Source: Fibrobacteria bacterium (GTDB lineage: Bacteria; Fibrobacterota; Fibrobacteria; UBA11236). From it: a stretch of 64,000 bases of DNA. How positions within the stretch are numbered: position 1 is the stretch's first letter; the number at the start of each line of letters is the position of its first letter. The translations under genes and the position numbers were made by a program. The DNA is taken from positions 1 through 64,000 of the forward strand of contig JADGQO010000073.1 in the NCBI GenBank assembly GCA_017881725.1. The letters run 5' to 3'. Positions 8,992 to 18,818 of the stretch are shown here, piece by piece. The notes under the pieces are model-generated. The model was not told the origin of the DNA, did no database searches, and saw nothing but the letters and a program-made list of their open reading frames with translations.

Positions 8992-9693
8992 GTGCAGAAC
9001 AACCGCATACTTGCCATTCTTATTGATGTGTTGAACCGTCTCGCTCGGGAGAATCCGTCTTTCCATACCCTACCGGAAAACCTGGAAGCCTCTACCACTC
9101 TGGATGAATCCCACATCTCTGACACCAATATCGGAGAACTGGCCCAAGCCCTGCGCCAGCGCTTCGGCGGCATCGCGCTGAATGTCGAACTCATGTACCG
9201 GCTGCAGAAAACTTTCGCCGGCACGTCCATGGACATGGGCTATTACAAAACCTTGGGCGATATCGCCCGGCATATCCAAACCAGCCTCCAACACGGCGTC
9301 AAGAACCCCGTCGTTGTCTATGTGGACGATGAAGAGGAAAACCTCTTTATCTTTCGCCGCCAATTCGGGAAGCGTTGCAACTTGCGCACCTTCACCGATC
9401 CGCGGGAAGCCCTGGCCTTCATTTCGGAAACCCCCGATGTCGTACTGGTCCTGACCGATGAATCGATGCCCGCGCTCTCCGGCAACGCGCTCTGCGACGC
9501 CGTGCATGAAAGCAAGCCTTTCCTGAAGTTCGTCCTCATCACGGGCAACCCCGGTGGGGATCAAAACCTTGTGCATAAGTCCCTGCGCCAAGGCCGATTC
9601 TACGATTTCATCAACAAGCCCTTGGACTTCGCGGGCAAAGGCGAAGAGTATTTCACGATCATCAACAAAGTACTGACCGGGGAGTTCTTCTAA
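8992..9693 (+). CDS. Acyl-carrier-like domain fused to response-regulator receiver (paralogue 1)
   Basis: A 233-residue protein starting at GTG 8992 with AGGA upstream; this start aligns with the N-termini of the two paralogues. Residues 1-100 resemble an acyl-carrier-protein fold, including the helix IGELAQALRQRF, which matches the helix after the DSL motif of ACPs. The serine that carries phosphopantetheine is absent here. Residues 106-233 are a complete receiver: acidic pocket D112/D113, phospho-acceptor D156 (VLTDESMP), T184 (ITGNP) and K209 (NKP). There is no DNA-binding or enzymatic output domain. It lies 71 bases before the CqsA-like synthase, so it probably acts with it. The role in relaying or sensing acyl chemistry is inference. 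Confidence 0.8.
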   Translation: MQNNRILAILIDVLNRLARENPSFHTLPENLEASTTLDESHISDTNIGELAQALRQRFGGIALNVELMYRLQKTFAGTSMDMGYYKTLGDIARHIQTSLQHGVKNPVVVYVDDEEENLFIFRRQFGKRCNLRTFTDPREALAFISETPDVVLVLTDESMPALSGNALCDAVHESKPFLKFVLITGNPGGDQNLVHKSLRQGRFYDFINKPLDFAGKGEEYFTIINKVLTGEFF

Positions 9694-9764: not shown

Positions 9765-10973
9765 ATGACCGTAGTTATTCCAAAAAGCAATCCCAACCAC
9801 CCCGAGTGGTTCGAATCCTACAAGGAAGAGTACCTGAAGCGTTGGCGGGCCTATGAGCCTTTTCCCTTCGATCAGCCCTCGGATACGCACAATTACCTGA
9901 GCCTGCACCAGAACGATTATCTCCGCCTAAGCGACCATCCGGAGGTGATCAGGGCCAAGAACGAAGCCAACGAATCCACCGGGAGCGGCCCGATGGCGTC
10001 CATCATCTACGGCGGGGATACGGGACAACACCAGAAATATCGGAGCACCCTCCAGGAGGTCATGAAAACCGGGGACGTCATGCTGACAACCGCAGGATGG
10101 ACGGCAAATGTCGGCATCGTGGAATCGGTGGCGCTGCCCGACATGCCCATCTATCTCGACTACCAGGCGCACGCTTCGCTGTGGGACGGGGCGCGGCTTT
10201 CCGGAGGAAAAATCGTACCCGTGCGGCATAACGACGCGGACCACCTGGAGAAACGGATCAAGCGATCCGGCGCGGGTGTGGTCTGCATCGATGCATTCTA
10301 TAGTACCGATGGGAGCGTTCCGGATTTGGAACGTTATGTTCAGATCTGCGAGGAAAACGATTGCTTGCTGATCCTGGACGAAGCGCATTCTTTCGGCATG
10401 ATTGGCCCCAATGGAGGCGGCTTGGCCGTTCATCTCGGGCTGGAAAACCGGATCCCGCTGCGCACGGTTTCCATGAGCAAGGCCCTCGGTGGGAACGGCG
10501 GATTCATCGCCGCATCGGAAGAACTGGTTTGGTTTCTAAAGCACCGATCCAGACCAGTCATTTTCAGTTCCAGCCCCTCACCCGCCGGGTCGGCCGGCGC
10601 GAACGCCGCGATGAAGGTCGCCCTGCGCGAGCCCGAACGCGCCGAAAATTGCCTTCGCATGGCGGCTTTGCTCCGGACGCTGCTTCTCGAACGGGGCATC
10701 GATCCGGGAACCAGCAACAGCCAAATCATCTCGATTTATTTCGACCAGGATCCCTTGGCCGCCAAATTCTATGGCTTGATGAGAAAGCACGGCATCCTGG
10801 TCTCCGTATTCACGGCGCCGGCTGTGCCGCGGGATACCAGCTTGGCCCGGTATTCGATTCACTGCGAAGTGACCGCCGCAGACATGGAACGGGTAGCCAA
10901 TGCGACGGCTGAGGTGGTCGCTAAAATGGCCGTCCAGGTTAAACCGCCATTTTCTTTCGTTGAAAAAACATGA
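9765..10973 (+). CDS. CqsA/LqsA-like alpha-oxoamine synthase (autoinducer synthase)
   Basis: A 402-residue PLP enzyme of the alpha-oxoamine synthase family (BioF/KBL/CqsA). Catalytic features are the PLP lysine K239 in SMSKALGG, DEAHS at 205-209 (D205 binds the PLP ring nitrogen) and a glycine-rich C-terminal domain. Several stretches match Vibrio CqsA as I recall it, better than BioF or KBL: HASLWDGAR (136-144; CqsA HMSLWEGAR), GWTANVG, DAFYSTDGSVPDL, GPNGGGL and IFSSSPSP. CqsA and LqsA condense an acyl-CoA with an amino-acid-derived substrate to make alpha-hydroxyketone signals. The neighbours, a CqsS-like receptor domain and acyl-carrier-like proteins, support a signal-synthase role. The exact product is unknown. 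Confidence 0.85.
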   Translation: MTVVIPKSNPNHPEWFESYKEEYLKRWRAYEPFPFDQPSDTHNYLSLHQNDYLRLSDHPEVIRAKNEANESTGSGPMASIIYGGDTGQHQKYRSTLQEVMKTGDVMLTTAGWTANVGIVESVALPDMPIYLDYQAHASLWDGARLSGGKIVPVRHNDADHLEKRIKRSGAGVVCIDAFYSTDGSVPDLERYVQICEENDCLLILDEAHSFGMIGPNGGGLAVHLGLENRIPLRTVSMSKALGGNGGFIAASEELVWFLKHRSRPVIFSSSPSPAGSAGANAAMKVALREPERAENCLRMAALLRTLLLERGIDPGTSNSQIISIYFDQDPLAAKFYGLMRKHGILVSVFTAPAVPRDTSLARYSIHCEVTAADMERVANATAEVVAKMAVQVKPPFSFVEKT

Positions 10974-11025: not shown

Positions 11026-11700
11026 ATGAACAGCATGCAAGCATATGAAATCCTGAAAGAAATAGTCCAATCTATGGCCCTGCGCGGGGAACACGTTGGA
11101 CCCTTGTCGCCAGAGCCAAACCCTGACTTACCTTTGGAAAGTTCCGGAATTGATCTCATCGCATTTTCCGATATTACCGAAGATCTCAAGCAAAGATTCC
11201 AAGGCAAAGACTTTCATTTGGACCAGTACCTGGTTCCCGATGAATTCCACTACTTGACGATGGGAAAGCTCCTTTCCCAACTTGCGAGCGCCCTTCGCAC
11301 AACGGTGCAGAATCCCCAAGTCGTCTATGTGGATGATGAAGAGGAAAACCTTTTCATCTTCAAACGCAAATTCGGGAATAAGCTGAACCTCAAGACTTTC
11401 GTGGATCCCCTCGCAGCTCTCGAGTACATCAAGGCCGAGGATTCGGTCACGCTTGTCATCACGGACGAGGTGATGCCGAAAATGGGCGGCAATGCGCTTT
11501 GCGATGCCGTCCACAAAGCCAAACCGATGCTCAAGTTCATCCTCATCACGGGCAACCCGAACAGTGATGGCGAGCTTTTACACCATACTCTCCGGCAAAA
11601 CAGGTTTTATGAATTCATCAATAAACCATTGGACTTGGCAGGCAAAGGTGAAGAGTATTTCGCACTCATAAACAAGGTATTAACCGGGGACTTTTTCTAA
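11026..11700 (+). CDS. Acyl-carrier-like domain fused to receiver (paralogue 2)
   Basis: A 224-residue paralogue of the 8992 gene. ATG 11026 follows CGGAGGAG at about 7 bases, a strong ribosome site. The acyl-carrier-like part reads LESSGIDLIAFSDITEDLKQRF in two adjoining pieces (residues 37-58), and the canonical DSL is DLI, so the phosphopantetheine serine is replaced by leucine. The receiver part keeps D103/D104, D147 (VITDEVMP), T175 and K200. It follows the CqsA-like gene by 52 bases. About 30 bases after its stop resemble the bases after the stop of paralogue 1, which suggests tandem duplication. It has no output domain. Confidence 0.8.
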   Translation: MNSMQAYEILKEIVQSMALRGEHVGPLSPEPNPDLPLESSGIDLIAFSDITEDLKQRFQGKDFHLDQYLVPDEFHYLTMGKLLSQLASALRTTVQNPQVVYVDDEEENLFIFKRKFGNKLNLKTFVDPLAALEYIKAEDSVTLVITDEVMPKMGGNALCDAVHKAKPMLKFILITGNPNSDGELLHHTLRQNRFYEFINKPLDLAGKGEEYFALINKVLTGDFF

Positions 11701-11727
11701 ACCATGAGGACGAGGGGGATATCTAAC

Positions 11728-11955
11728 CGGAGGATATTACCCATCAAATCAGCCGGTTCTAGGCGATGGGCAGGGAGGAACCCTTCACCTGAACCAGATC
11801 GATCCAACGGTAGTTCCCGAAGTCCGGCGGCAACTCCTTGATGACGTCCTCGGTGACCACCACCTCAACCGCTTTTTGTTTTTCCTCATCCGGTTTAGCC
11901 AGTGCGACCTTAGCTGCGGTAATCCGAATGTGGAAACTTTCGAGTACATGCATGA
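11728..11955 (-). pseudogene. Remnant of a second CqsS-domain cyclase
   Basis: Minus-strand remnant closely matching parts of the intact cyclase at 13132-14646. It joins a piece equivalent to the end of the membrane domain and the following coiled coil (HIRITAAKVALAKPDEEKQ) directly to a piece near the cyclase C-terminus (VVVTEDVIKELPPDFGNYRW). The whole catalytic domain is lost, and a second internal deletion follows. Because the retained coiled-coil sequence differs from the intact gene, it came from a diverged paralogue, not from a recent partial copy. Non-functional. Confidence 0.75.
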
Positions 11956-12359
11956 CTGAGGCGGAAACAATTCCCCCGGCCGACGCGGCCGCGACTTTGG
12001 CCGCCTTGGATGAAATCGGGACCCATCCGGAAGTCATGCAGGAACTCAAGAAGAAAACCGAATACTTCAGGAGAAAACTTCTCGATTTGGGATTTGATTT
12101 GGGCAATAGCAATAGCGCAATCGTTCCGGTTTATATTCTAAATTTTGAGACATTGCTGCAATTTCCCCGCGATCTCTACTTGGAAGGAATATTTTCCGTC
12201 TCCGTGGCCTTTCCGGCGGTTAAAATTGATGAGGGCCGATGCCGATTCACGGTGAACCAATCGCATACTTTCGCGCAAATCGAGACGACCGTTTCGGTCC
12301 TGGAAAAATTGGGGAAACAACACGGGCTTATCCATAATCGGGCTGGAGTAGAAAAATGA
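11951..12359 (+). pseudogene. C-terminal fragment of a second alpha-oxoamine synthase
   Basis: Open frame of 136 codons from ATG 11951 that aligns only with the last third of KBL/BioF-type alpha-oxoamine synthases (IPPADAAATLAALDEI, then FRRKLLDLGFDLG, SNSAIVPVYI and the terminal RFTVNQSHTFAQIE). The N-terminal two thirds, with the PLP lysine and the active-site aspartate, are gone; the sequence before it is the cyclase remnant. It looks more KBL-like than CqsA-like. Its TGA overlaps the ATG of the next gene (ATGA at 12356-12359), which suggests that synthase and receiver proteins were once translationally coupled. A role as a stand-alone fold is unlikely. Confidence 0.75.
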
Positions 12360-13027
12360 ATATTGAAAGAGTTTATGGAATATTGCGCGATATAACCTTA
12401 GCGATGTCTAAGGTTGACGCAACGATAAAACCGCTACCTGAAAAAATGGTGAGCGACACGCCGTTATCAACGCTGGGCTTGGACATCGTAACCCTTCCGA
12501 AAATAATCGCTAACCTGCAGAGTAGATTCCAAGGACGTGACTTGGGTACCCGGGAAATATTTTTGAACGAAACATTAAACAGGATGGCCATTGGCCAACT
12601 CGTGGAAATACTTGCAGGCTCGTTGCGTACGGAATCTCAAGATGCGATCGTGGTCTACGTGGATGACGAGGAGGAAAACCTTTTCGTGTTCAAGCGGAAG
12701 TTCGGGAAAAAATTGAATCTGGTTACTTTTAGCAAGCCCATCGAAGCGTTGGACTACATTCAAAAAACATCGAATGTCGGCTTGGTAATCACGGATGAAG
12801 TCATGCCGAAAATGACCGGGAACGTCCTTTGCGACGAGGTAAAAAAATCGAAGCCCAACCTGAAATTCATTTTGATTACCGGAAATCCTGATCAAGATGA
12901 CAACCTTCTCTACAATTCCCTCCGACAAAATCGCTTTTATGAATTTTTCCACAAACCCGTGGATTTTGATAAAGAGGGAGAACAGTATTTGAATATGATT
13001 CAAGGCCTATTGGATTTTGAATGGTAA
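12356..13027 (+). CDS. Acyl-carrier-like domain fused to receiver (paralogue 3)
   Basis: A 223-residue protein, third member of the set. The N-terminal domain contains STLGLDIVTLPKIIANLQ (residues 38-55), where the ACP serine position is isoleucine. The receiver retains D103/D104, D147, T175 and K200. The ATG overlaps the stop of the synthase fragment by four bases, so expression probably depended on that upstream gene; a purine-rich GGAGTAGAAAA precedes it. It is more AT-rich in its first half than its paralogues. It has no output domain. The next intact gene, the receptor-like adenylate cyclase, lies convergently downstream. Confidence 0.78.
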   Translation: MNIERVYGILRDITLAMSKVDATIKPLPEKMVSDTPLSTLGLDIVTLPKIIANLQSRFQGRDLGTREIFLNETLNRMAIGQLVEILAGSLRTESQDAIVVYVDDEEENLFVFKRKFGKKLNLVTFSKPIEALDYIQKTSNVGLVITDEVMPKMTGNVLCDEVKKSKPNLKFILITGNPDQDDNLLYNSLRQNRFYEFFHKPVDFDKEGEQYLNMIQGLLDFEW

Positions 13028-13131: not shown

Positions 13132-14646
13132 TCACTTTTCATAGAAAATGTGCACGCCTTCCCAGCGCTCGATTTGTTCCCAAGCACCCGCAGAGTCGTT
13201 AATCCAGACGTCACAATGCCGGATATAGTACCGGAGGATATTGTCCATCAAATCAGCCGGTTCTAGGCGATGGGCCGGGACTTTTTCCAACATGGCCCGG
13301 AAAAGTCGGGACGCATCCTTGAAGCCCTTCTGGAAATAAATAGCCAAAGCCTTTTCCAGCAATTCGCGAGTTTCATTTTTATAACGTCGGACTTCCTCGG
13401 GCTGATGTCCGTAGATTTCATAGAGCTTAAGGTGTCGGGAGGAACCCTTCACCTGGACTAAATCAATCCAACGATAATTCCCGAAGTCCGGCGGCAACTC
13501 CTTGATGACGTCCTCAGTGACCACCACCTCCAGGTTGTACATCTTGGTCTTGGATTCCAGGCGCGCGGCGATGTTGACCGCCTCTCCGATTACGGTGCGG
13601 TCCAGCTTCTCGAAGGATCCGAAATTGCCGACCATCACCTCGCCCTTGGCGATGCCGATGCCGTTGCGGATCATGGTGGCCCCGCCCTTGTACATGACGT
13701 TGTTGAAACGCTGCAATTCCAGGCGCATCTCGATGGCCGCACGCACCGCGCCCGCTCCCGTGGGGAACACGCCCATCACGCAATCGCCCATGATCTTGTC
13801 CACCTCCCCGCCATGGCGCATGATGGGGTGGGTCATCAAGGTGAAATACTGGTTCAAAAAGGTTTGCTTTTCATACGGACTGAGCACCTCGGTCAGGTGC
13901 GTGAAATCGCGGATGTCGCAGAACATGATGGAAAGGTTCTGGATCACCGGCGGCGTGGCGGAAGGGTCGACGCCGGCATGGATTTCCTGGACCAGGGAGG
14001 GGCGGACATACACACGGAGCAAGTCGTCGCGCTTGCGCAGTTCGGCATAATTACGGGCCGTTTCGATGGCTTGGGTTTTTTCGTTTTCGGATTTGGAAAG
14101 CGCCATCTGGACGGCGATGATTTTGTTGTGTGTGATTTCCATCGTCAACTTCAACACGCTTGCGACAAACCCACCGAAAAATGAGACTACATGGGCCTTG
14201 ATGGATTCTTCGATCAAAGGAAGTCCATGCGGGTGGGACCGGAGAAAGGCAAAAGACGCGAGACAGACCGCGCCGGGATAAAGAAAAATCAAAAAAACCG
14301 GTTTGGCGGTGAATCCGTATCCAAACCCGGCAAACACCATGGACGCCCACCAATAAAGGTTTCCGCCGTTCATTAGGAAGTAATAGGTGAAGAAGGCGGG
14401 AAAGGTAAGATTTACCAGCTCGTAGTAAAATTTCTGGTAGCCATTGAGTTCTTTTTCCCGAGGGAAAAAAATCAAGGCGAGGTACAACAATGCCACGCCG
14501 CCGCGAATATACACGGACTCCCAATAGCCCAGGCCGAACTTTAGGAAAAGGAAATATACCGGATGGGCGAGGCAACCGATGAATCCGAGAACCCGAATCG
14601 ATTTTTGGACGAATCGATAATCAAGGTTGAAAATTATTTTAAACAA
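13132..14646 (-). CDS. Adenylate cyclase with CqsS-like six-helix receptor domain
   Basis: A 504-residue membrane protein. Residues 1-175 form about six transmembrane helices that I align with the CAI-1-binding domain of Vibrio cholerae CqsS. LGFIGCLAHPVYF matches its first helix, and W99, S102 and F157 fall at CqsS W104, S107 and F162; the ligand-length residue C170 becomes L165. A coiled coil (about 175-212) leads to a class III cyclase domain. That domain has metal aspartates D244 and D288, substrate lysine K284, T351 in the adenine-specifying position, and N358/R362. All catalytic residues are present, so it should make cAMP. A C-terminal helical region follows (415-504). It is probably the receptor for the neighbouring synthase's product; this is inference. 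Confidence 0.85.
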   Translation of the reverse strand: MFKIIFNLDYRFVQKSIRVLGFIGCLAHPVYFLFLKFGLGYWESVYIRGGVALLYLALIFFPREKELNGYQKFYYELVNLTFPAFFTYYFLMNGGNLYWWASMVFAGFGYGFTAKPVFLIFLYPGAVCLASFAFLRSHPHGLPLIEESIKAHVVSFFGGFVASVLKLTMEITHNKIIAVQMALSKSENEKTQAIETARNYAELRKRDDLLRVYVRPSLVQEIHAGVDPSATPPVIQNLSIMFCDIRDFTHLTEVLSPYEKQTFLNQYFTLMTHPIMRHGGEVDKIMGDCVMGVFPTGAGAVRAAIEMRLELQRFNNVMYKGGATMIRNGIGIAKGEVMVGNFGSFEKLDRTVIGEAVNIAARLESKTKMYNLEVVVTEDVIKELPPDFGNYRWIDLVQVKGSSRHLKLYEIYGHQPEEVRRYKNETRELLEKALAIYFQKGFKDASRLFRAMLEKVPAHRLEPADLMDNILRYYIRHCDVWINDSAGAWEQIERWEGVHIFYEK

Positions 14647-14922: not shown

Positions 14923-16743
14923 ATGAAACAAAAAATCATCCTTCCCGCGGAAACGACGACCGGTGATTGGAAACCGATCCTTCCAAACAAGGAGGCCGGC
15001 TTCACACTCTCTCCGGACGGAGCTTCGAAATCCGATCCTAAAAAGTTCGAGGTCGGGAAATTCAAATTCCATGGGCTCTTTGAGAATCGGACGCAAGAAC
15101 GCATTTCGCAACGCGAGTTGGGACTGGTCCAAATGTCAATGCGCCAGCCCGGGCGGGAGGAATGGATCGCCGTCCGGCTCTGGGATTTCACGTCCATCTC
15201 TTTCGGCGTACAGTTTTTGCCGCCACAATCCATCCAGGATCCCGCCGGTTTCCAACGCCCGGAAGCCGGCTCCCCAACCGAGCCGGCCGACGAACGTGAC
15301 CGATTGGAATTAGGTTCCCTCCCCGCCGATTCCGGCAAGGTACAGGTACAATGCGGCGACCAAGTCGAAATCCGCATCCGGATTACCCATCACGCGGAAT
15401 TCCAGATTTGGTGCGAAGTCAAGAATACCGTGGCCTGGAAAGACGGCGTCAAAATCGGTTTGCGACGGCTGGATATCGCCTTCCCGCAAAGCGTGAACAA
15501 GGAAAGGCGCGAAAATTTCCGACTGCCCGTGGCGCCGGCTCTGGCCTTGAACGCCCGCTTAAGTCATCCTTTCCTGTTCGGCCAATGGAGTCTCATGCAG
15601 GTTTCCGACGTGAACCACAGCATGGGACTCAGTTTCGACTGTCGCGATCCGTCCATCCTGGTTTTCGAGGATATGGAGTTGGACATCCATTTCGAGTTGC
15701 CCAACCTGCGTCAAGTCGCAATGTCCGCGCGCGTGGCCTGGGTGCACGCGACGGAGGCTAATCACGTGAAGTTCGGCGTGGCTTGCCTCGATATGCCCTG
15801 GGCGTTACATAACGGCATCTGTGACTTTTTGTTGTTCTCGCGCCATTGGACTCCCCTGCGCCTGCGCGAGGCGGGTTTCCGCGCGCGACGAGTAAAAAAC
15901 CGCCTGCGTTTCCGCACGGTTAAAAACATGGGCGATTACGCCGAAGTTCTTTATCTCCGCCGCGACGCTTACGTTGGCGCCGGCAAGAAATCCGCCGATA
16001 CCAAACCCGAGGAAATGGCCGGCTCGCTGGACGGCTGCAGCCGAATCCTCATGGCCCATCACCATAACGACTTAGTCGGCAGTCTGACGTTTACCTTTCC
16101 GCCCACGGAAGATACGGTGTTGGACAGCCAGGCCGGTTTTCCCGGAAAAAAATATCCCGTCGCTTTGCCGCCCAAAGCCAATCTCATCGAAGTATCGCGC
16201 CTTTGCATCCATGGCGAATACCGGAATACCGACTTGTTGCAAGGCCTGTTCGAGCACGGCATCAAGCATTTCCTCATGTCGGATCGCCATTGGCTCCTGA
16301 CCTCGGCGGTGGAAGGATTGCTGCCCGCGTATTTGCGAATAGGGTTCGTACGGCTCAAGGCCAGTTACAGGCATCCGGGCCTGAATCACCAGGAACATCA
16401 TTTGATCCTGGCCCACAGGAACACGTTCCTATGGGGACAGGGCATGAACCTTATGGTTTGGAATACGTTATTCTCCGACGTGATCGCCTATATGCTGGAC
16501 CGGAAATTAATCGAGGTGAATGGTTTGGAGCGCGCAATCATCAGATCCAAGTTGCTGCTCAGGCCGGTCTCTCGCTTGTTCGTGGAACGCCGCGCGCAAT
16601 CCGCTTTCCAAGCGCATTTGAAGTCGCTGAGGGAATCGTTCCGACATCGTCCCGGGAAAGAAACCGTTCCCGAAGCGGAGATGTTACCCACTCCGCTGCG
16701 CGCCCCCTCAACCCCCGAGTCCCCGCGCGATTCCTCCGACTAG
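14923..16743 (+). CDS. PilZ domain fused to FeeM/LuxI-like N-acyltransferase domain
   Basis: A 606-residue soluble protein. Residues about 45-190 may be an N-terminal beta-domain. A PilZ domain follows, with the c-di-GMP motif RR-x3-R (R195, R196, R200) and a second motif NHSMGL (231-236) that lacks the last glycine of the NxSxxG consensus. From about residue 325 the sequence resembles the N-acyl amino acid synthase FeeM, an acyl-ACP-dependent relative of LuxI: DYAEVLYLRRDAYV (338-351), D370/S373, and LIEVSRLCI (421-429) with Glu and Arg in the expected places. It could be a c-di-GMP-controlled N-acyl transferase. It diverges from the receptor cyclase. The substrate is unknown. Confidence 0.72.
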   Translation: MKQKIILPAETTTGDWKPILPNKEAGFTLSPDGASKSDPKKFEVGKFKFHGLFENRTQERISQRELGLVQMSMRQPGREEWIAVRLWDFTSISFGVQFLPPQSIQDPAGFQRPEAGSPTEPADERDRLELGSLPADSGKVQVQCGDQVEIRIRITHHAEFQIWCEVKNTVAWKDGVKIGLRRLDIAFPQSVNKERRENFRLPVAPALALNARLSHPFLFGQWSLMQVSDVNHSMGLSFDCRDPSILVFEDMELDIHFELPNLRQVAMSARVAWVHATEANHVKFGVACLDMPWALHNGICDFLLFSRHWTPLRLREAGFRARRVKNRLRFRTVKNMGDYAEVLYLRRDAYVGAGKKSADTKPEEMAGSLDGCSRILMAHHHNDLVGSLTFTFPPTEDTVLDSQAGFPGKKYPVALPPKANLIEVSRLCIHGEYRNTDLLQGLFEHGIKHFLMSDRHWLLTSAVEGLLPAYLRIGFVRLKASYRHPGLNHQEHHLILAHRNTFLWGQGMNLMVWNTLFSDVIAYMLDRKLIEVNGLERAIIRSKLLLRPVSRLFVERRAQSAFQAHLKSLRESFRHRPGKETVPEAEMLPTPLRAPSTPESPRDSSD

Positions 16744-16826: not shown

Positions 16827-18818
16827 TTGGCCGATAACGTGCTTACCGTCCAAAACCTGCATAAAGCGTGGGGAGAAAAAGTCCTCTTCGGAGGGCTGTC
16901 GTTCGGCATAGACCAAGGCCGCAAGGTGGCCTTACTCGGATTAAACGGCAGCGGTAAAACCACCTTATTGCGCATCCTGGCGGGAGTAGAATCGGATTTC
17001 GAAGGCTCCATCGCGCGTCGCAAGGATCTTACCCACCGTTACCTGGATCAAGACGTAAAAGTAGTGGAACCCGGTGACAAGAACGCCGTCGTAGGTGATT
17101 TGCGCGCCGGCCTGCGCATAGCGGACGAAGTGTTCGCTCCGCACGGCAAGTTAGGAAAACTGTTAGCCCAATACGTGCATACTCCGGACGGGGATCTTTC
17201 GGACGCCATCGATAAGGACCATGGTTGGGATCTTTATGGACAGGCCCAGGCGCTGGCGGGACAATTGGACATCGAACTCGATTGGATCATCGACCCGGCT
17301 TTATCCGGCGGGCAAATCAAGAAAATCCAAATCATACGCGCCTTAATCGGAGAACCGGATTTGGTGCTGATGGACGAACCGACCAATCATCTGGATGAGG
17401 CCGCCATCCGTTGGCTGGAAGGGAAGCTCGCCGGTTACCGCGGCACCTTGATTGTCGTCACTCACGATCGCTATTTCCTGGAAAACGCCGTGGATCATAT
17501 CCTGGAATTGTGGAACGGCGATATACGCTCGTTCCCGGGGAATTACGGCCGCTACCTGGAAAAGAAAGCGGAACTGGAGGCCACGCTGGCCAAGGAAGAC
17601 GCCAAGCGCCTGTCCTTCCTGCGCACCGAAATCGATTGGATCCGGCGCGGTCCTAAAGCCCGGGGCACCAAGGCCAAGGCCCGCATCCAGCGCTACGAGT
17701 CCGCGCGCGACACGCAGGGCTTTTCGGCCGACAAATCCATGGAATTAGAGTTGGACTCGGCGGCGCGCCTGGGCAAAACCATTCTGGAAATCGAAGGCCT
17801 GTCGAAAGCCTACGGCGATAAAAAGCTGTTCCAAGGATTGGACCTGAGTCTTCTGGCCGGGGACCGGGTCGGCGTATTGGGGCCTAACGGATCCGGAAAA
17901 ACCACTTTCCTGAAAATCCTGCTCGGACAAATCCAACCCGACGCCGGCAAGTTGCAGTTGGGAATCAACACCTCCATGGCCTATTTCGATCAGAAGCGCG
18001 AATCGCTGGATCCGGAAAAAACCGTCTGGGCCACGCTGGGCGGGGATGCCGAGGTCGTGGAATTCGGAGGCAGCAAGGTTCCCAAGCGCCGCTTCCTGGA
18101 AAATTTCCTCTTCCCCAGCCGCATGCATTATTCCAAAGTAAGCCGGTTGAGCGGCGGCGAGCAAAACCGCTTGCAACTGGCCATGGCCTTGGTATCACGG
18201 CCGGCCAACCTTTTGATTCTCGATGAACCGACCAACGATTTGGACATCGCCACTTTGCAGGTCTTGGAACGCGCGCTGGCGGAATTCCCCGGATGCGCCA
18301 TCGTGGTCAGCCATGATCGATTCTTTCTGGATCAAGTCGCCACCTCCATGCTCTTGTTCAGCAAGAATGGCAGCGTGAAACAAATCGCCGGTAACTATTC
18401 GGATTATCTGGAGTGGGAGGAATCCGATAAAGGCGGCTCCGACTCGCGCAAGGTCAAGGACGGCAAGGAGGGTAAAGACGCCAAGCCGGATGTGGGTAAC
18501 GCCACCGGGGAACGGAAAGGTTTGGACAGTAACGCATCGGCTACCGGTAACTCGAGCGTGACTTCGGGTGATGGCACCAGGCGCAAAGCCGGCCTTTCCT
18601 ATATGGAAAAAAAGGAGTGGGAAACCATCGAATCCGCCCTTGCCGACAAGGAACGGGGAGCGGTCCAGGCGGAGCAGGCGTTAGCCGAAGCTTCAGCTGC
18701 CGGGGATTTTCCCGCTGTGCAGGCGGCCAATCTGCGGTATGAAACCGTGAAATCCGAAGTCGAAAAACTATTCGCCCGCTGGGAATGGTTGGACGCTAAA
18801 TTGAACGGACAGGAATGA
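16827..18818 (+). CDS. uup: ABC-F ATPase, Uup type
   Basis: A 663-residue soluble tandem ATPase of the ABC-F family, which acts on ribosomes or nucleic-acid structures and has no membrane part. TTG 16827 is the likely start: GGAGGA lies 6 bases upstream and the first domain begins immediately. Domain 1 has Walker A GLNGSGKTT (38-46), signature LSGGQ and DEPTNHLD. Domain 2 has GPNGSGKTT, LSGGEQNRLQLAMAL and DEPTNDLD. The C-terminal coiled coil after a charged linker (EKKEWETIESALADKE) is the Uup-type DNA-binding tail. Uup is linked to precise excision of transposons and to ribosome or Holliday-junction functions. A strong terminator follows directly. Confidence 0.88.
   Translation: MADNVLTVQNLHKAWGEKVLFGGLSFGIDQGRKVALLGLNGSGKTTLLRILAGVESDFEGSIARRKDLTHRYLDQDVKVVEPGDKNAVVGDLRAGLRIADEVFAPHGKLGKLLAQYVHTPDGDLSDAIDKDHGWDLYGQAQALAGQLDIELDWIIDPALSGGQIKKIQIIRALIGEPDLVLMDEPTNHLDEAAIRWLEGKLAGYRGTLIVVTHDRYFLENAVDHILELWNGDIRSFPGNYGRYLEKKAELEATLAKEDAKRLSFLRTEIDWIRRGPKARGTKAKARIQRYESARDTQGFSADKSMELELDSAARLGKTILEIEGLSKAYGDKKLFQGLDLSLLAGDRVGVLGPNGSGKTTFLKILLGQIQPDAGKLQLGINTSMAYFDQKRESLDPEKTVWATLGGDAEVVEFGGSKVPKRRFLENFLFPSRMHYSKVSRLSGGEQNRLQLAMALVSRPANLLILDEPTNDLDIATLQVLERALAEFPGCAIVVSHDRFFLDQVATSMLLFSKNGSVKQIAGNYSDYLEWEESDKGGSDSRKVKDGKEGKDAKPDVGNATGERKGLDSNASATGNSSVTSGDGTRRKAGLSYMEKKEWETIESALADKERGAVQAEQALAEASAAGDFPAVQAANLRYETVKSEVEKLFARWEWLDAKLNGQE

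Follow-up and report, generated by a model that had tools for sequence, protein, structure and literature searches.

A tandem-PilZ protein with a FeeM-type acyltransferase domain in a Fibrobacteria bacterium, a candidate for c-di-GMP-controlled N-acyltransfer

We analysed a stretch of 64,000 nucleotides from a Fibrobacteria bacterium (GCA_017881725.1, contig JADGQO010000073.1, positions 1 to 64,000 of the forward strand; hereafter the window), in which a gene that we call FeeM-B encodes two N-terminal PilZ domains, a FeeM-type domain of the GNAT fold and a C-terminal helical extension (Table 1). The frame is open over 606 codons, has a GC content of 0.59, 0.42 and 0.69 at the three codon positions and has orthologues of 54–68% identity in all five sampled relatives of the genus, which with the window's own genome makes six of six; it is a real gene. 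The downstream neighbour encodes an ATPase that we take to belong to the ABC-F family, and upstream lie a cyclase gene and an island with an alpha-oxoamine synthase and receiver genes.

Table 1. Positions in the window of FeeM-B, its domains and its neighbouring genes.
Feature	Coordinates	Strand	Basis and remarks
CqsA/BioF-like alpha-oxoamine synthase	9765..10973	+	PF00155, 133 bits
REC protein with N-terminal all-helical, carrier-protein-like domain	12356..13027	+	PF00072, 42 bits; PF00550 only at E 0.11; model
Class III adenylate/guanylate cyclase	13132..14646	-	PF00211, 62 bits; divergent upstream neighbour of FeeM-B
FeeM-B, tandem-PilZ / FeeM-type N-acyltransferase (predicted)	14923..16743	+	ORF; 606 aa, ATG start
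PilZ-1, residues ~54-186	15082..15480	+	R56xxxR60xxxR64 and D88-F-T-S-I-S-F-G; strand order in model
PilZ-2, residues ~192-292	15496..15798	+	RRENFR 195-200 and SDVNHSMG
FeeM-type GNAT domain, residues ~325-500	15895..16422	+	PF21926; Foldseek to 2g0b
E423 codon, within LIEVSRLCI	16189..16191	+	position of FeeM catalytic Glu95 / Nas354 Glu103
C-terminal helical extension, residues ~510-574	16450..16644	+	model helices 510-516, 518-526, 534-544, 547-574
ABC-F type ATPase	16827..18818	+	directly downstream of FeeM-B, 83-bp gap

In all five relatives (G001–G005), FeeM-B is the last gene of a module with the order FeeM-A, haem-oxygenase-like oxidase, FeeM-B, where FeeM-A is a paralogue, a more divergent PilZ-FeeM protein, and the oxidase is an iron enzyme resembling haem oxygenase (78 bits against PF14518 in G001). 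The FeeM-A and oxidase genes overlap by 8 bp at locus L022 and by 4 bp at L025, and 24–29 bp separate the oxidase from FeeM-B at both loci. Because of these short overlaps and gaps, the three genes likely form a translationally coupled operon. A histidine kinase with a GAF domain is conserved divergently upstream of the module in the relatives. Wherever a relative's contig extends far enough, the ABC-F gene follows FeeM-B, with homologues of 64–68% identity (tblastn) at L022, L023, L024 and L025. The module is present in two copies in G004, and in G003 a further, split PilZ-FeeM lies between FeeM-B and the ABC-F gene; this extra gene (L024, 5704–7667) is apparently divided into a PilZ ORF and a FeeM ORF. 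Oxidase genes between two PilZ-FeeM genes are found at L022 (10238–10948), L025 (7528–8178 and 13417–14094) and L026 (6645–7280). A 398-aa protein that matches no Pfam family is encoded beside the kinase in four relatives (L022, 14785–15981, with homologues in L024, L059 and L026).

At the FeeM-B locus of the window's genome, only FeeM-B and the ABC-F gene remain of the module region. The PF14518 oxidase was not found in this genome (~90% complete), and a lone FeeM-A paralogue lies on contig C195 (L027, 7264–8742). Because its homology continues past a TAG stop, this paralogue is probably truncated. With oxidase and paralogue lost from the locus, FeeM-B would act alone in this organism and may be a remnant after loss of the module.

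FeeM-B had been placed directly next to a CqsA-like island by the initial annotation, which holds in outline; the 3.95 kb upstream of FeeM-B, back to the end of the synthase gene itself, hold two receiver genes with a synthase fragment between them, followed by the cyclase. The synthase scores 300 bits against PRK07179 (quorum-sensing autoinducer synthase), below the cut-off of 428, so its product is not a PRK07179 equivalog by this profile. Synthase and receiver genes share the contig of FeeM-B in four of the six genomes (G000, G001, G002 and G004); the island was not found on that contig in G003, and the contig of G005 is too short to reveal it. Linked homologues of the receiver protein of Table 1 occur in G001, G002 and G004, the same three genomes in which cyclase homologues adjoin the FeeM module or this island. 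The window holds three paralogous receivers (8992–9693, 11026–11700 and 12356–13027), the N-terminal helical domain of which resembles an acyl-carrier protein by pattern, with I or L in place of the phosphopantetheine serine (GLDIVTL, GIDLIAF). A structure search with the receiver model was dominated by receiver matches and did not confirm the carrier-protein reading. The segment at 11717–12359 encodes a C-terminal piece of another alpha-oxoamine synthase, and about 150 bp before it are duplicated from the cyclase gene (13221–13530; 90–93% identical); it is either a decayed synthase gene or the product of a local rearrangement.

An AlphaFold2 model of FeeM-B, for which ten relatives were used along with the window protein, has a mean pLDDT of 76.3, with about 93 in the FeeM domain and about 90 in the C-terminal helices. 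Along the chain it consists of two strand-rich regions, which are consistent with beta-barrels, the GNAT domain and a helical tail, within the residue limits given in Table 1. For residue conservation, we aligned 14 proteins, seven of the B type (FeeM-B) and seven of the A type (the paralogue). The C-terminal extension matches no family and contains W513, which is invariant in this alignment. Searches of the window protein against PDB sequences (phmmer, hmmsearch) found no FeeM or PilZ relatives; the matches obtained, at E > 0.03, were to unrelated proteins and were rejected as chance. The link to FeeM (2g0b) came only through the relative L034, described below, and through structure comparison.

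The gene had initially been read as PilZ fused to a FeeM-type acyltransferase, a fold relative of AHL synthases, and this reading is borne out by the Pfam FeeM family, by structure matches and by the PilZ scores of orthologues. PF21926 (FeeM) matches residues 343–489 of the window protein with 27.3 bits (E = 3.7e-6) at a cut-off of 27, so that membership is narrow; the isolated domain scores 29.9 bits and the orthologues 37–49 bits. Both FeeM motifs noted earlier, DYAEVLYLRRDAYV and LIEVSRLCI, lie inside this match. E423 in the latter is invariant among the 14 proteins. We mapped it to the FeeM glutamate via L034, a PilZ-FeeM protein of another Fibrobacterota family that itself matches 2g0b at E = 3.4e-9, and found it colinear with the AEI/AEV of L034 and 2g0b. 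The profile-profile comparison (hhalign) behind this step, of the FeeM-B family with bona fide PilZ-FeeM proteins, is colinear but weak, with a probability of only 1.4% from shallow alignments. E95 of FeeM, which corresponds to E103 of Nas354, has been proposed to be catalytic, and the E103A mutant of Nas354 lost its activity (PMC4897644).

Between the E423 strand (421–429) and helix 438–452, the loop reads R434-x-x-D437-L-L, with D437 invariant. In acetyl-CoA GNATs, an R-x-x-G-x-G/A loop holds the CoA pyrophosphate, and its glycines are replaced in FeeM-B. All Pfam models of ordinary GNATs stayed below their own cut-offs on both the window protein and the isolated domain. The comparison of a predicted structure with FeeM and LuxI, proposed in the initial annotation, returned for the GNAT part FeeM (2g0b) with a target-normalised TM-score of 0.68–0.71 in Foldseek and the CoA-dependent AHL synthases BjaI, MesI and RpaI with about 0.60–0.63; SbzI, a GNAT whose structure was determined together with its carrier protein, was also among the best structure matches. 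Because ordinary GNATs match the model equally well or better (target-length TM-score up to 0.84; 5jph 0.83), the predicted fold by itself cannot tell FeeM and ordinary GNATs apart. By profile, FeeM-B does not belong to the LuxI-type AHL synthases: NCBIfam gave no match with E up to 1, and the Pfam matches listed include no AHL-synthase family.

Several ordinary GNATs are among the top structural matches, and FeeM-B might combine PilZ with an ordinary acetyl-CoA-dependent GNAT that has a protein or sugar as its substrate. Its logic would be like that of Caulobacter HfsK, a c-di-GMP effector from the GNAT family (HfsK has two GNAT domains, and its closest solved relative is FemX; PMC5362036). 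We regard this as quite improbable: the conserved FeeM glutamate, the CoA loop with its invariant D437 and the sub-threshold scores of the corresponding Pfam models all speak against the ordinary active-site layout that the initial annotation had considered as the contrary case.

Acetyltransf_5 (PF13444), which we take to comprise OlsB/AHL-synthase-type GNATs including related acyl-ACP enzymes, is also narrowly matched, with 22.7 bits at a cut-off of 22.4 (isolated domain 24.8), and the signature E-x-S-R-L-C-x-H-x-x-Y-R resembles this family. These matches would fit an OlsB-like lyso-aminolipid synthase: the acylated substrate would be ornithine, glycine or some other amine, the product a membrane lipid or surfactant rather than a signal, and c-di-GMP would adjust envelope composition. 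In the window protein the FeeM score is nevertheless above that of PF13444, in orthologues the margin is clear (45.6 versus 24.5 bits), and the adjoining genes, the neighbourhood to which the search was confined, include no OlsA-type O-acyltransferase. We consider an aminolipid synthase an unlikely identity for FeeM-B.

The N-terminal half comprises two PilZ domains, not one. The initial annotation had recognised PilZ-2 by its RR-x3-R at residues 195–200 (within ERRENFR) and missed PilZ-1, though the motif of the latter is the more conserved: R56, R60 and D88 are invariant and R64 is nearly so among the 14 proteins. The PilZ-1 stretch of the window protein, which in the model contains a low-confidence insertion (residues 104–137), did not match Pfam PilZ (PF07238) when searched alone; the paralogue of the same genome, L027, matches Pfam PilZ across this domain with 24.0 bits, above the cut-off. 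PilZ-2 alone reaches 22.0 bits (E = 2e-4), just missing the cut-off of 22.5. The whole window protein gave no PF07238 match, and its orthologues exceed the cut-off with 26 bits. An RRxxxR motif arose in 16% of shuffles of the first 330 residues of FeeM-B, and we rejected it as evidence of PilZ on its own. It counts here because its aligned position is kept in all seven B-type proteins (and in none of the seven A-type proteins), and because of the scores of the PilZ-2 stretch and of the orthologues and the matches of the model. In Foldseek, the model matched the c-di-GMP-bound PilZ proteins 3kyf and 2rde and also the two-barrel protein 5vx6 (E ~1e-5); as the Foldseek table carries no residue ranges, we assigned these matches to the N-terminal half from the kind of target.

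An RxxxR motif is present in both domains (R56-R60(-R64) and R195/R196-R200), and the (D/N)xSxxG motif is present in neither domain of the window protein. PilZ-1 of this protein and its closest orthologues reads DFTSIS, with T90 for S and S93 for G. PilZ-2 reads DVNHSMG, one residue too long, in keeping with the imperfect second motif (NHSMGL) noted earlier. Because the second motif deviates in both domains, one or both may fail to bind c-di-GMP, judging from these residues. The PilZ pair could then be a structural or docking module, and the enzyme constitutive or controlled by a partner such as the divergent histidine kinase that relatives keep next to the module. Failure to bind c-di-GMP is common among PilZ domains, and the A-type paralogues lack RRxxxR in PilZ-2 entirely. 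R56, R60 and D88 are nonetheless retained across 14 divergent proteins, and the A-type proteins keep a canonical RxxxR...DxSxxG in PilZ-1, so that we consider a non-binding pair doubtful, if less so than the two enzymatic alternatives above. From nine GGDEF matches in the window's genome, c-di-GMP is probably made by this organism.

The domain composition, the fold, the retained catalytic glutamate, the lost CoA-loop glycines and the conservation of the module were shown by computation; an acyl-ACP donor, an amine acceptor, c-di-GMP binding, a direction of control and a role of the product as a signal are inferences. We favour, by a small margin over an even chance, the reading that FeeM-B is an acyl-ACP-dependent N-acyltransferase under c-di-GMP control with an N-acyl amino acid or amine as product. 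The two PilZ domains would be the sensor, and the FeeM-type GNAT domain would take a long acyl chain off an acyl carrier protein and, with E423 as the general base, transfer it to the amino group of an amino acid or a comparable small amine. On binding to the RxxxR of PilZ-1, PilZ-2 or both, c-di-GMP would reorient the pair and thereby open or close the acyltransferase site. Because FeeM-A and the haem-oxygenase-like diiron oxidase share the operon in most relatives, their pathway probably yields an N-acyl product that is then oxidised. A wider scheme is speculative and unlikely to hold as a whole: in a conserved Fibrobacterota signalling region, a pair of tandem-PilZ FeeM enzymes together with the diiron oxidase would produce an N-acyl signal in oxidised form, controlled by c-di-GMP, and would work jointly with the neighbouring alpha-oxoamine synthase and its receivers, so that c-di-GMP and a phospho-relay would set two lipid signals.

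Our survey of distribution covered the phylum Fibrobacterota. A scan of genome contigs with two peptide patterns gave matches in loci of the same genus only. In another Fibrobacterota family, L034, L035 and L036 (391–406 aa) are single-PilZ-FeeM proteins with 35–51 bits for PilZ and 123–145 bits for FeeM; they share the phylum and the PilZ-then-FeeM order with FeeM-B, but have one PilZ domain and a FeeM domain that departs far less from the type sequence. A 514-aa protein from another family of the class (L028, 11089–12633; PilZ 54 bits) can be aligned with the FeeM-B family over its C-terminal part, which lacks the catalytic glutamate, and is possibly a dead acyltransferase on this alignment.

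Through PilZ domains, c-di-GMP is known to control motility and the synthesis of polysaccharides. For Nas354, it has been proposed to control directly an enzyme that makes a small-molecule lipid, and we found no test of this proposal in the literature searched. The A and B forms, with PilZ-1 and PilZ-2 motifs kept or lost, are a natural variant set that makes the question of c-di-GMP control testable, and they point to an uncharacterised FeeM/diiron-oxidase pathway in a poorly studied phylum. In a literature search, we found no paper that pairs a haem-oxygenase-like enzyme with FeeM or with N-acyl amino acids.

Among known proteins, FeeM (2g0b) and the LuxI-type AHL synthases BjaI and MesI share the GNAT fold and a catalytic glutamate with FeeM-B, and FeeM also lacks the acetyl-CoA loop glycines; unlike FeeM-B, they are stand-alone enzymes without a sensor domain, with 13–15% identity in the structural alignment. 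Receptors of the YcgR/VCA0042/MotI type (3kyf, 2rde, 5vx6) likewise have two beta-barrels with RRxxxR starting the second, but carry no enzyme, and the first barrel of FeeM-B has its own conserved PilZ-type motif. NasP, cited as a cAMP-activated N-acyl amino acid synthase (PMC4897644) and compared here by that description, would share direct control by a second messenger with the scheme proposed for FeeM-B, with cAMP rather than c-di-GMP. The closest precedents are Nas343 and Nas354, metagenomic NAS-PilZ fusions that make N-myristoyltyrosine and for which the authors proposed regulation by c-di-GMP (Thies et al. 2016; PMC4897644). Apart from these, our literature search for PilZ with FeeM returned no report; on their precedent we rejected the idea that a PilZ-FeeM fusion is unreported (PMC4897644). 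The concept is already known, and the tandem PilZ, the order reversed relative to Nas354 and the FeeM-A/oxidase/FeeM-B module appear undescribed. Like Nas343 and Nas354, FeeM-B joins a FeeM-type NAS and PilZ in one polypeptide with the catalytic glutamate at the same motif; whereas they have an N-terminal NAS and one C-terminal PilZ domain, FeeM-B has two PilZ domains first and a C-terminal NAS with a helical extension. By this comparison, FeeM-B is not a NAS-PilZ fusion of the Nas354 type, though it may work similarly.
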